From NCBI GenBank assembly GCA_015654675.1, contig JAATGM010000010.1, forward strand, positions 1 to 64,000: a stretch of 64,000 bases of DNA, in the 5' to 3' direction. Made by a program: the position numbers and the translations under genes. Below, piece by piece: positions 2,867 through 7,118 of the stretch. Source of the stretch: Planctomycetota bacterium (GTDB lineage Bacteria > Planctomycetota > Phycisphaerae > UBA1845 > UTPLA1). The notes below the pieces were generated by a model. The model searched no databases. It saw nothing but the letters and a program-made list of their open reading frames with translations, and was not told the origin of the DNA. Position 1 is the stretch's first letter. Each line of letters opens with the position of its first letter.

Positions 2867-3493
2867 CTAGCGACCGCGTCGCATCAGCCCGATCCCCGCT
2901 CCGACCAGCAACATGATCATCGTCGCCGGCTCCGGAACAACGGCAACCTGCGCGACCGAAGACGTGCTACTCACCTGGTGAAAATTCGCCGATGCCTGAT
3001 CTCCACCTTCCATCTTCACTGTCACCGAAACGTTCCCCATCCCGAACACTCGGCCCGACGCCGGATCCGAAATGAGCGCATCCGTGTCAGCCGCAAACCG
3101 GAACGAATCGCCCGCGCGGAACGAACCCGCCGCAAAGTTGACCGTCAGCACCGTCGGATGCCCGGCCAGACCCGTCCAGGAAAAATTGACGTCAGACGCC
3201 GAGAGTCCCACGAGCGAAGGCAGCCGAAGCACCGCATTGGTCCCGTTGGCAAAGCTGCCCGTCCCGTCAAAGTCGAACATCGCGCCCGGCGTGCCCGCGA
3301 CGTCAAACGTCATCGTCTCCACAGACCCCGCGCCCGACTCGAACATCACGCCGTAAAAGTCGTTGTTCGCGGCGTTGTCGCTCCCCGTCGTATCCAAAAC
3401 GATGGCGGCCTTCGCTTGCACCGGAAAGCCGGCCACCGCCGTGAATGCCCCGATGACGCTGGCGACAATGAAAAACTTATGTGACTTCTTCAT
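2867..3493 (-). CDS. PEP-CTERM sorting domain protein
   Basis: A 208-residue exported protein: signal peptide at residues 1-27 (MKKSHKFFIV onward), a beta-rich body, and a C-terminal PEP-CTERM tag consisting of VPEPATM, a hydrophobic helix and the basic end LMRRGR. In the known system an exosortase cleaves at this tag and the protein is delivered to the cell surface or matrix; no exosortase is in this window. The start at 3493 is preferred because an AGAGGA precedes it and it begins the signal peptide. The longer open frame to 3559 would put a charged stretch before the signal. The body's cargo function is unknown. Confidence 0.82.
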   Translation of the reverse strand: MKKSHKFFIVASVIGAFTAVAGFPVQAKAAIVLDTTGSDNAANNDFYGVMFESGAGSVETMTFDVAGTPGAMFDFDGTGSFANGTNAVLRLPSLVGLSASDVNFSWTGLAGHPTVLTVNFAAGSFRAGDSFRFAADTDALISDPASGRVFGMGNVSVTVKMEGGDQASANFHQVSSTSSVAQVAVVPEPATMIMLLVGAGIGLMRRGR

Positions 3494-3592: not shown

Positions 3593-4129
3593 TCAGGCCG
3601 CATCACCTCCCCCGTCCGCCTCGTCCCGCCCGCCGCCGCACCGTTCGCCGGTCATGCTCGTAGACTTGGGCTTGAAAGCCGCTTCGCCATCGCTCGGATG
3701 GGGCGGCAAAAGTTCGCGAATCATCGCGTGATTCGCCAATTGACCGGTATTCAAGCGCATGAGATCGCCCTTCAGTTCCTCAACCCGACCCTTCAGCGAT
3801 CCGAGCGGAACCGTCCGCAGCACGCCGAGCATGCGCGGCGGAGCGAGGATGACCAGATGTTCGACCTTGTGCTGAACCGATTTCGTCTGCAGCCAATGGA
3901 TAATTTCCGCTGCAAACCGGCGCTCGTTGTTCTCGATGTTGTGCGTCGCGCCGCCAAGGGCTGTCGGCCGCGCGTGTTCCTGTTCGGGCAAGGCATTCTT
4001 CAGTCCTTCGTGTTCATCTACGTGTTGCGTGCCTTGCTCAGTCGTTCCAACGCACAGAAGTCGACACGATTCCGCGTCCGCCAGCGCAAACCACGTGTGG
4101 CCTCGTTCTTCCATTTTCGGAATGATCAT
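3593..4129 (-). CDS. Host-attachment-like protein (bacterial eRF1-related family)
   Basis: A 178-residue protein matching, from memory, the host-attachment family related to the bacterial archaeo-eukaryotic release factor fold. It opens with WFALADAESCRLL, a typical first strand of that family, and has the conserved ENNERRFAAEIIHWL helix and HLVILAPPRMLG strand-loop. The C-terminal ~25 residues are Gly- and Asp-rich. The start at 4129 has AAGGAG 7 nt upstream; another ATG at 4135 is too close to that site. It sits in a cluster with DUF892 and glycine-zipper genes often linked to stress. Its leader contains a long hairpin and a structured repeat. Biochemical role is uncertain. Confidence 0.72.
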   Translation of the reverse strand: MIIPKMEERGHTWFALADAESCRLLCVGTTEQGTQHVDEHEGLKNALPEQEHARPTALGGATHNIENNERRFAAEIIHWLQTKSVQHKVEHLVILAPPRMLGVLRTVPLGSLKGRVEELKGDLMRLNTGQLANHAMIRELLPPHPSDGEAAFKPKSTSMTGERCGGGRDEADGGGDAA

Positions 4130-4193: not shown

Positions 4194-4238
4194 GGGCTCA
4201 GGCCACCGACCCCCCCCCCGGAGTCGGTGGCCGAGCCC
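4194..4238 (-). other. Long hairpin with homopolymeric loop in 5' leader
   Basis: GGGCTC at 4194-4199 and GGCCACCGAC at 4201-4210 pair perfectly with GTCGGTGGCC at 4223-4232 and GAGCCC at 4233-4238, leaving one bulged base (4200). The 12-nt loop contains a run of ten C (G on the minus strand). It lies 65 nt upstream of the host-attachment-like start codon. There is no T-run after it in the minus direction, so it is not a classic terminator. Confidence 0.7.
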
Positions 4239-4295
4239 AACTGAGTGGCGCACTACCTTGCGCCGACAATCGATTTCACGAAGGAAATGAATCGA

Positions 4296-4412
4296 GTAAA
4301 AAGCGAAAAACCGACGTGGCAGAACACCCGCGGGTATTCAATCACGTCGGTTTACTCAACAACGAGCCCCCCGGCTAAGCCGAGTTGCCCTTTATCTGGT
4401 CACCCGAACACT
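4296..4412 (-). repeat. Structured intergenic element, copy 1
   Basis: Aligns along its length with 6141-6254. Read on the minus strand, conserved blocks are GTTCGG, GATAAAGGGCAAC, GGGGGGCT, GTTGTT, GTAAACCGACGTGA and CACGTCG. A 10-bp outer stem (AACCGACGTG with CACGTCGGTT) encloses an ACCCGCGGGT palindrome and is followed on the minus strand by TTTTTCGCTTTTT, which is terminator geometry. A smaller GGC-rich stem precedes it. It lies upstream of the host-attachment-like gene (start 4129), as copy 2 lies upstream of the DUF892 gene. Not assigned to any RNA family I know. Confidence 0.65.
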
Positions 4413-4561
4413 TCAACTAGGTCCTGTCGCCAGTCCGCATGATTTCTCACGCGTGCTCACAGGAACCAAGAGCATAATCGCGAGAATGCAAAATGGGCAG
4501 GGCGATTCCGTGTTATTTCGTGCAAGTCGCAAATAGTGCCCGCACGCACCGCCCGAATGGA

Positions 4562-4690
4562 TTACTTACGCAACAACTTTGCAATGATGAAAATGACAAC
4601 CGCTCCAAAGAAGCCGCCTCCCAGAAGCAGATAAACAAGTGAGTACCCCACGGCGGCAAGTGGCAGAAGAATCACTGGTTGGGCTGGCAT
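4562..4690 (-). CDS. Tiny predicted membrane protein (42 aa)
   Basis: The frame is open from 4867, but I take the ATG at 4690 because GGGGAG lies about 7 nt upstream and the encoded 42 residues form a coherent hydrophobic protein: two apolar stretches around VGYSLVYLLLGGGFFGA, ending IIAKLLRK. It resembles, in style only, the small stress-induced membrane peptides found beside DUF892 genes. It lies downstream of the glycine-zipper gene on the same strand. Function is unknown. Confidence 0.5.
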   Translation of the reverse strand: MPAQPVILLPLAAVGYSLVYLLLGGGFFGAVVIFIIAKLLRK

Positions 4691-4898
4691 GAAAATCTCC
4701 CCGGCCCGAACCGGAACGGCCATCAGCGACCTGCTCCCGATTGACACCGATCTCATCTCGAAAGGAACGCCCGAAGCCCGCCTCGTATCGATGACGGGCC
4801 TCGGGCACGGAACCGCCGATTTCCGGCGGTTCCTGACTAACCCAGCCAGTACACTCTCGCGGAGCACGGCTGGATGGAAATTACAAGTTCATCGCGAT

Positions 4899-5429
4899 TC
4901 ACACAGCACGGCGGCCGCATTCGCTCTGCTCCACGCGCAGCCACGCGTCACGCATAGCGCCCCGCGCGTCGCTCCAACTCAGTTTCTTATTCTCGGCGCG
5001 TGCTTCCCACCCGGCGCGCAATTCGGGTTCCGCCGCTTCAAATGTCTGCCCATACTCGCCGTGGCTGCTGTAGCTCTCCCAGCCATACTGGTAGGCCGGA
5101 CCGTAAAGCTCATAGGTGGAACCCTGCGGAACGTACTCCCGTCCCTGGTATGCACCGCGCCAATACGCATGTTCAACCGTGGGATTGACAGCCTCGGCCG
5201 CCCCCTTCCCGGCCAGCCCGCCGGCGACCGCTCCAACGACTGCGCCGACACTCGCCCCGATCGGACCGGCCACGACCGCCCCGATGAGCGCTCCGGTCGC
5301 GCCACCTCCCGCGGCTCCCGCGCCCACGCCGACCGGGTGCGCCCCGGGTGCCCCTGTGATCGGATCGCGATTGGCGTCTGAATTAGACACGGCTGCTGCT
5401 TTTTTGATGTCAGTCTCGCTTGGACTCAT
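4899..5429 (-). CDS. Glycine-zipper protein
   Basis: A 176-residue protein with a polar N-terminus, then a Gly/Ala-rich zipper at about residues 36-75 (GxxxGxxxG spacing, e.g. GALIGAVVAGPIGASVGAVV), then a Tyr-rich acidic region (WRGAYQGREY, YQYGWESYSSHGEY) and a charged end. The ATG at 5429 follows GGAG at 8 nt; a TTG two codons upstream is less likely. Related proteins occur in many environmental bacteria near general-stress genes. Here it lies between DUF892 and the tiny membrane protein, probably co-transcribed. It has no signal peptide, and its role is unknown. Confidence 0.72.
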   Translation of the reverse strand: MSPSETDIKKAAAVSNSDANRDPITGAPGAHPVGVGAGAAGGGATGALIGAVVAGPIGASVGAVVGAVAGGLAGKGAAEAVNPTVEHAYWRGAYQGREYVPQGSTYELYGPAYQYGWESYSSHGEYGQTFEAAEPELRAGWEARAENKKLSWSDARGAMRDAWLRVEQSECGRRAV

Positions 5430-5523
5430 GTTCAAATCTCCTTACAGAATCTACTTTTTGGAAATGGCGCACATTCGATAAGCGCATCACATTTCAACGT
5501 TCGTTCAGTGCCGCCGGGCACAT

Positions 5524-6030
5524 TCAGACCGCGACGGGCTCCGCGCATGCCTTTTCGTTTATGCCGCCCTGCGCTAACGCAGTCAGCTTCTTGTCGGCAG
5601 CGCCGTCTTCATCCAGTGTTTTCTGAAGAACCTTGGCCGCGTCCTTGTAATTCAATGCGTTGGCGAACGTCCGAACACACCCATATGCCGCCATCTCATA
5701 GTGCTCAACGCGCTGCGCCGCTGCGATCAGCGCGACGTCCCGCACCGAATCCTCCGAATCTTCGTTGATCGCCTCGCCGCCCTCCTTGATCAGCCCCTCC
5801 ATCGCGACGCACTTCTTGCCGCCTGGACTCAAGCTCAGCCGCTCAAAGATCGTTTCGAGCCGCTTGATGTGCTCGTGCGTCTCACCCAGATGGTGCGCGA
5901 ATGCGTCCCGCAATTTCGTGCTGCTGGCGGCCTTCGACAGCTTGGGCAACGCCTGCCGAATTTGCTTCTCCGCGCTGTAAATGTCCTTCAACTCGCTGAC
6001 GTAGAGGTCATGCAATGAAGCAAGTTTCAC
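5524..6030 (-). CDS. DUF892 ferritin-like protein (YciE/YciF family)
   Basis: A 168-residue helical-bundle protein. The opening (LHDLYVSELKDIYSAEKQI, about residues 5-23) is the hallmark of this family, with metal-ligand Glu residues in helix 1 (E12, E20) and again in HLGETHEHIKRLE. A VEHYEMAAYG helix supplies further ligands, and the length matches the usual ~160-170. Family members are diiron, ferritin-like stress proteins induced by osmotic or general stress. It is the first gene of a minus-strand run with the glycine-zipper gene 94 nt downstream. Its leader contains structured element copy 2, suggesting RNA-level or shared regulation. Confidence 0.88.
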   Translation of the reverse strand: MKLASLHDLYVSELKDIYSAEKQIRQALPKLSKAASSTKLRDAFAHHLGETHEHIKRLETIFERLSLSPGGKKCVAMEGLIKEGGEAINEDSEDSVRDVALIAAAQRVEHYEMAAYGCVRTFANALNYKDAAKVLQKTLDEDGAADKKLTALAQGGINEKACAEPVAV

Positions 6031-6140
6031 GGTGGATTCCTTTCAAAAAACGACTTGATCGGCGACAGACTTTCCAATGGGTCGAACCGGACTATTCATG
6101 CCGTCATGACGGCCTTTCGGTCCACGACGCCGCGCGCAAC

Positions 6141-6254
6141 TGCAAAAAGAAAACGACGTGCCCAAACGCCCGCAGGCATTCGCTCACGTCGGTTTACCGA
6201 ACAACAAGCCCCCCGGCGGATCCGGGTTGCCCTTTATCTAGTCATCCGAACACT
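6141..6254 (-). repeat. Structured intergenic element, copy 2
   Basis: Second copy of the element at 4296-4412, in the same orientation, about 110 nt upstream of the DUF892 start. The GATAAAGGGCAAC block, the GGGGGGCT block, GTAAACCGACGTGA and CACGTCG are conserved. The short GC stem after GGGCAAC has a different sequence in the two copies yet still pairs (CCCGG/CCGGG here, CGGC/GCCG there), which hints at RNA structure. On the minus strand the final stem runs into TTTTCTTTTT. A GCCGTCATGACGGC palindrome sits at 6101-6114 between the element and the gene. Confidence 0.65.
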
Positions 6255-6893
6255 GATGTTGACGTCCGCCGGAAGCCCGCGCAAATCCACAAGCTGCCGA
6301 CAGACGGTCGGATCTTAGGGTCCGGTATGCAACAAGGCGAGTTAATTCCACGTAATCGTGCCCACTCATGCAACGTCTGCTTGCGCATGAGCCGGTGCGA
6401 GTAGAAATGATTTACACTCGCAATCGAATCGGTCCCCGACTCGCCGAATCCCGGCAAGTCGAGTCCATCGACGGTGATGCGTTTTTCGCCCCTTGGAAGA
6501 CACGGCTCGCCGCGCCAGTAGATCGCAAATCGGCAAACCCGGGACAGTCCCGAATGGCATGAAGCCGAACGCCGCCATCCCGCTTCGCGGAATATCCCGC
6601 TCTCCCACCCCCGACCGTGCCTCACCCCGCCCCGCCCCGCGTCATCGCCCACCGTCCACTGTCCATTAGCTACCCCCTCCGCCCCGCCCCCCGTTCCCCA
6701 TTCTCTGATCTCTGTTCCTTGCCCCTGCCCCCTCCATCCCGCCCCCTAACGAAGATTCCATGTCCGTTCCGGACATTTCTGGTCCACTGTCCCCCGTATA
6801 TCTATAATAAACCACCCCAAACCTCCCCCCGCATCGCTGTCCACTGTCCATTATCCATTGTCCACTTTCTATCCCCGCCCCGCCCGACTGGCA
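6255..6893. other. Non-coding stretch, pyrimidine-skewed
   Basis: No convincing gene. From about 6600 to 6890 the plus strand is strikingly C/T-rich and repeats a GTCCACTGTCCATT motif (near 6653, 6782 and 6838). It also holds a perfect 7-bp hairpin (ATGTCCG, TTC loop, CGGACAT at 6760-6776) and a TATAAT at 6803-6808 with no gene after it. Short open frames here look like noise. Confidence 0.5.
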
Positions 6894-7118
6894 TCAGTCA
6901 TTACTCTGACCGACCTTCTTCAGCGCCGCACCCTTGTGCATCGCAAGGTGGTCGGTCTTTTCGCTCTTTATCAGGTACTGCGGCTCTTCCTTCGACGCGT
7001 GAACCGTATACCCCTTAAACTTGGTTTCAGACGTGATTTTCTTCTTGATCGTCCCCCGAACCCGGCCGGCCTCCGAATTCCACTCTACGAGGTCGCCAAC
7101 TCTGAAAGCGCGTGTCAT
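6894..7118 (-). other. Possible independent translation start for the DUF2945 domain
   Basis: The ATG at 7118 is preceded by AGGAGAG with a 7-nt spacer, better than any site before the DUF488 start. Translation from here gives 74 residues, exactly a stand-alone DUF2945 protein. The two domains may therefore be two genes whose separating stop codon is absent, or one gene yielding both a fusion and a short form. Confidence 0.5.

Follow-up and report, generated by a model that had tools for sequence, protein, structure and literature searches.

In the window analysed here (the whole stretch of DNA, 64,000 nt in length), two minus-strand copies of an element of ~115 nt each are situated upstream of two genes on the same strand, encoding a Host_attach/baeRF_family12 protein and a DUF892 protein, respectively (Table 1). 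The first-pass annotation had described two aligned copies in the same orientation in front of a host-attachment-like gene and a DUF892 gene. Its positions were recovered by a repeat search and by alignment, all sequence blocks that it quoted were found in both copies, and domain matches to PF10116/PF18856 and PF05974 agree with the two gene assignments. A glycine-rich ORF, to which no family was assigned, directly follows the DUF892 gene and probably shares its transcription unit. The neighborhood also contains a strong inverted repeat at 4201-4236 (GGCCACCGAC, a C run and GGAGTCGGTGGCC, without a U-run), located past the copy-1 terminator and ahead of the Host_attach start codon, and a low-complexity region of short repeats (CTGTCCACTGTCCATT, CCGCCCC) at 6600-6900, between a DUF488 gene and the DUF892 leader.

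Table 1. Positions of the two element copies, their parts and the adjacent genes in the window.
Feature	Position	Strand	Details
Host_attach/baeRF_family12 gene, 3' of copy 1	3593..4129	-	PF10116/PF18856; ATG 4129, AAGGAG upstream
Leader RNA element copy 1	4301..4412	-	model hit 4301-4419, R2 E 4.5e-29
Copy 1 antiterminator 5' strand	4398..4407	-	UCGGGUGACC
Copy 1 P1/P2 hairpin	4360..4394	-	
Copy 1 antiterminator 3' strand	4347..4356	-	AGUAAACCGA
Copy 1 intrinsic-terminator hairpin	4310..4351	-	
Copy 1 U-rich tail	4301..4309	-	continues UUUUUCGCUUUUU
Glycine-rich ORF, family not assigned, directly 3' of DUF892 gene	4899..5435	-	
DUF892 gene, 3' of copy 2	5524..6030	-	PF05974, E 4.4e-56; GTG start 6030
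Leader RNA element copy 2	6143..6254	-	model hit 6143-6261, R2 E 3.3e-26
Copy 2 antiterminator 5' strand	6240..6249	-	UCGGAUGACU
Copy 2 P1/P2 hairpin	6202..6236	-	
Copy 2 antiterminator 3' strand	6189..6198	-	GGUAAACCGA
Copy 2 intrinsic-terminator hairpin	6152..6193	-	
Copy 2 U-rich tail	6143..6151	-	UUUUCUUUUU

The repeat search aligned the two copies without gaps over 105 nt at 83% identity (4308-4412 versus 6150-6254), and the core pattern AAAGGGCAAC-N8,22-GGGGGC matched twice in the 64 kb, compared to 0 matches in 100 shuffled windows. In folding calculations both copies exceeded all 200 shuffles (z of -4.8 and -3.6, respectively), and two alternative folds, an antiterminator and a terminator, were seen in each of them. 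The CCGA of the copy-1 antiterminator 3' strand also forms the base of the 5' arm of the terminator; in copy 2 the terminator base is weakened. A small GC hairpin, here designated P2, had previously been described as a covarying stem. Between the two window copies this did not hold, as P2 displays only a one-sided change (U-G versus C-G) and the double change, from A-U to G-C, lies in the terminator arm, whereas in the wider family the covariation turned out to be strong. A simple promoter scan accepted no promoter for either window copy.

Three further copies were found in the same genome by pattern search, and a covariance model made from five copies retrieved seven full-length sense copies from it. 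Covariance model searches detected the element in 25 of 61 related genomes, from which 63 copies were gathered, with a maximum of nine per genome within the DNA fetched. In a phylum-wide sample a broader model found it in at least 14 of 392 genomes belonging to more than one class, a figure that represents a lower bound given the stricter filters applied. Moreover, scanning 84,980 named genomes with a pattern yielded at least 120 stretches; among the matches listed, all records but one were named as Planctomycetota groups, and the element was not seen in Proteobacteria. Model searches on the loci from the pattern scan and the phylum sample added 129 sense hits, the loci overlapping in part. 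As far as seen, the element appears to be restricted to one phylum, the Planctomycetota. In some genomes copies form clusters with spacings of 2-3 kb, and complete copies stand directly adjacent to each other at L124 6193-6436, L136 1305-1544 and L168 7191-7428, placing two terminators in series, an arrangement that fits serial attenuators.

Our comparison of these homologues revealed an order of parts which from 5' to 3' consists of a variable stretch (often a hairpin, as judged by eye), UCGGAUGACU, the P1/P2 hairpin, AGUAAGCCGA, a long hairpin and a U-run. In a structure-free MAFFT alignment of 100 sequences, the 31 pairs of P1, P2 and the terminator were paired in 93.9% of cells, a share that fell to 30-47% when the pairs were slid out of register, and they contained 275 double-change cells versus 78 from shuffles. 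Likewise, in 176 copies that were also aligned without structure, the highest mutual information of all column pairs was that of the P1/P2 and terminator helices. The terminator is a ~20-bp hairpin followed by a U-run, with at least five U in 8 nt in 97% of the 176 copies. An extra hairpin proposed by RNAalifold (GUC-GGAU-GAC) was dropped, as only two of its pairs hold and the antiterminator accounts better for the bases involved. The first-pass annotation had called for a covariance model and a genome search, and these returned homologues upstream of stress-type genes with covariation support. It had also named two findings that would speak against a regulatory RNA, namely a lack of covariation in homologues and an occurrence at random sites as a mobile repeat. 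Neither was encountered: the homologues covary, a sense gene is the first one downstream of 159 of the 169 copies with a called neighbor, and copies are 73% identical within a genome compared to 71% between genomes.

The second fold, found by inspection, involves pairing of the near-invariant UCGGAUGACU with AGUAAGCCGA, which encloses P1/P2 and occupies the base of the terminator. This antiterminator helix consists of two segments, UCGG:CCGA and ACU:AGU, with a conserved internal loop (AUG/AAG) between them, and its seven pairs were formed in 98.3% of cells in the 100 sequences, compared to 16-42% when slid. The helix is nearly invariant, with double changes in just three cells in the 100 sequences; the variants of pair 21-63 (UA, GC, AU and CG) and of pair 15-69 (GC or AU) all keep pairing, and further double changes occur at pairs 12-72 and 20-64. 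Folding of nascent prefixes gave a mean antiterminator probability of 0.91, with values above 0.5 in 98% of the 176 copies, while permutation of the 5' strand reduced the mean to 0.08. When the full-length RNA was folded, the terminator exceeded 0.5 in 98% of copies and displaced the antiterminator.

Upstream of the element, -10-like boxes (score of at least 7) were present for 34% of the 176 copies, compared to 6% of shuffles, and were mostly positioned 45-75 nt 5' of the UCGGAUGACU block. Alignment on these boxes revealed a TTGCTT -35 sequence at a 16-nt spacer, which had not been a search criterion. Between terminator and gene the boxes were depleted (2% versus 7% in shuffles), suggesting that most of the linked genes are probably transcribed by read-through of the terminator. 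The downstream gene start lies within 100 nt for 83 copies and within 60 nt for 56 of them, and some copies are 200 nt or more from a called start. At the level of the family, the arrangement typical of an attenuator, with a promoter upstream and a same-strand gene downstream, was thus found.

The genes controlled by such a leader would be diverse. MpsC/DUF2294 accounted for 41 of 125 first downstream genes, and the remainder included Ice_binding-like, DUF1571, PAS histidine kinase, Transgly_assoc, KaiC, BON, CsbD, fatty-acid desaturase, OmpA, collagen-like, alcohol dehydrogenase and DUF892 genes. Genes for a sigma-70-like factor, DnaK and glycogen phosphorylase were recognized in addition by reading of the sequences. 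Divergent from the element, a further MpsC gene is frequently present (49 cases, a median of 276 nt upstream). Across 61 genomes, 21 contained both the element and MpsC, four the element alone, three MpsC alone and 33 neither (Fisher p=1.5e-9, a value that overstates independence because the genomes are related and that includes some element copies sitting inside MpsC clusters). An AlphaFold model of one MpsC/DUF2294 protein (m02a6ab8cc4ee, L119:7269-7649:+; pLDDT 90.7) predicts with high confidence a small alpha-beta-beta-alpha-alpha-beta-beta fold. Neither a significant PDB fold match nor a solved relative was found for it, so that a role of MpsC as the RNA-binding partner is neither supported nor contradicted. 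Several other genes were observed in the vicinity of the element. Genes for RRM-type RNA-binding proteins lie beside the divergent MpsC gene at L074, L075 and L083, ~0.8-1.0 kb upstream of the element, and a loose RRM pattern matched at 9 of 130 loci. Divergent CsrA-like genes occur 3' of the MpsC gene at L006 (~4220-4390), L071 (5732-5902) and L058 (~3250-3430). At L007 7024-7314, immediately 3' of the fifth copy, a frame resembling by eye part of a small globin-like protein, which may be a remnant, precedes a PAS histidine kinase gene.

With both folds, the U-run, the orientation towards genes, the promoter signal upstream and the joint occurrence with MpsC/DUF2294 established from sequence and covariation, we consider it very probable that the element acts in cis as a transcription attenuator that carries its own antiterminator. 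The earlier description, which proposed an attenuator or regulatory RNA located in 5' leaders, is supported by the covariance-model hits and their covariation; it did not include the helix of the antiterminator, the promoter signal further upstream, the association with MpsC/DUF2294 or the apparent restriction to a single phylum. According to the proposed mechanism, the leader RNA would be transcribed from a housekeeping-type (sigma-70-like) promoter, and in the emerging RNA UCGGAUGACU would pair with AGUAAGCCGA to form, together with P1 and P2, one long rod of ~60 nt with conserved purine-rich internal loops that acts as the antiterminator. As the RNA grows longer, the more stable ~20-bp hairpin with its U7-8 would reclaim the shared CCGA and halt RNA polymerase before the gene, unless a signal, most likely arising in stress, stabilizes the rod and keeps the terminator open so that the gene is switched on. 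We infer that the element is transcribed, that termination is the default state and that the signal turns the genes on. The involvement of a stress signal is suggested by the gene set together with the greater stability of the terminator, and a small molecule and an RNA-binding protein appear about equally probable as its carrier.

Several alternative explanations were considered. If each copy were the gene of a free small RNA, equipped with its own promoter and terminator and acting in trans on mRNAs, the promoter signal, the strong terminator and the presence of several copies per genome would be readily accounted for, and terminated transcripts would build up as RNAs of ~150 nt. However, the tight linkage to sense genes (159/169, with 56 starts within 60 nt and a depletion of promoters in the intervening DNA), the tandem copies and the conserved terminator-competing helix, which a plain small RNA does not need, argue against such a family; gene linkage and competing helix in particular make it the less likely explanation, and we regard it as improbable. 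A released leader could nevertheless have a second role besides control in cis. The multiple copies, in some genomes clustered at distances of 2-3 kb, might also recall a mobile or repeated DNA element that has spread without regulatory meaning. This explanation is contradicted by the sense orientation towards genes combined with covariation, by the conserved placement beside MpsC genes and by the near-equal identities within and between genomes (0.73 versus 0.71). Moreover, plasmid and phage collections contained no match and the viral collection only one matching contig, so that we consider a mobile repeat extremely improbable.

The near-invariant GGA in UCGGAUGAC raises the further alternative that CsrA binds there and locks the terminated form. 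CsrA is encoded in 59 of the 61 relatives, and several element-controlled operons contain divergent CsrA-like genes besides the ordinary CsrA. Known high-affinity CsrA sites present NGGA in a loop closed by A-U/C-G. The closing pairs seen in the element are not those of such sites, however, so that a loop of this kind does not appear to form, and the third pair of the GUC/GAC mini-hairpin forms in only about half of the copies. In addition, the distribution of canonical CsrA does not track that of the element, and the conservation of GGA is accounted for by the antiterminator helix; we therefore judge control by CsrA to be unlikely, slightly more so than a trans-acting small RNA.

Within the preferred framework of an attenuator with a built-in antiterminator, the sequence data would tentatively allow a more specific and quite possible reading, in which the element constitutes a new, Planctomycetota-specific riboswitch class that responds to a small molecule or an ion connected with stress and, by antitermination, turns on a dispersed general-stress regulon comprising MpsC/DUF2294, KaiC, sensor kinases, a sigma factor, CsbD, DUF892 and others. 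If true, it would represent an RNA-level counterpart of the alternative sigma factor used elsewhere. By its looks, the element defines an extensive RNA regulon, not catalogued so far, in a phylum with poorly known stress control, and it offers an entry point to the function of the MpsC/DUF2294 proteins, which in the Planctomycetota are widespread but obscure. Since one conserved leader precedes unlinked stress-type genes, a common stress signal would be directly testable, and each copy offers a ready-made in vitro transcription assay.

Rfam searches at gathering and relaxed thresholds gave no credible match at the element, in line with the first-pass annotation, which had recognized no known riboswitch class, and in the literature collection searched no publication was found that deals with the element or with planctomycete DUF2294. 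Similar to the element, the Rhodopirellula-1 motif, as entered in the table of a previous survey, is a probable cis-regulatory motif of Planctomycetes, with uncertain RNA status and without an Rfam accession in that entry (Weinberg et al., 2010, Table 1; PMC2864571). It is listed for Proteobacteria as well, in contrast to the element, which was not seen there among the matches listed; judged by this table entry rather than by sequence, Rhodopirellula-1 is possibly an earlier sighting of the element. Attenuation as a principle is known; the class of RNA and its regulon appear to be new, set apart from Rhodopirellula-1 by the table entry only.

With RAT sites (BglG/SacY) and ANTAR two-hairpin targets the element shares a hairpin whose sequence overlaps the 5' arm of the terminator and which has to be stabilized for read-through, but its rod of ~60 nt and its loops are different. 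Antitermination of the BglG/RAT type was rejected, as CAT_RBD proteins were found in 0 of 61 genomes while positive controls were detected; a search for ANTAR domains gave no match, the control genomes being silent as well. The resemblance to riboswitch-type attenuators (ZTP/pfl, fluoride/crcB and Li+ nhaA) comprises an aptamer-like domain 5' of a mutually exclusive intrinsic terminator and a position in 5' leaders, sometimes in tandem. Unlike these attenuators, the element matches no Rfam class, has so far been seen in one phylum only, and precedes a regulon of broad stress and envelope genes rather than those of one metabolic pathway.
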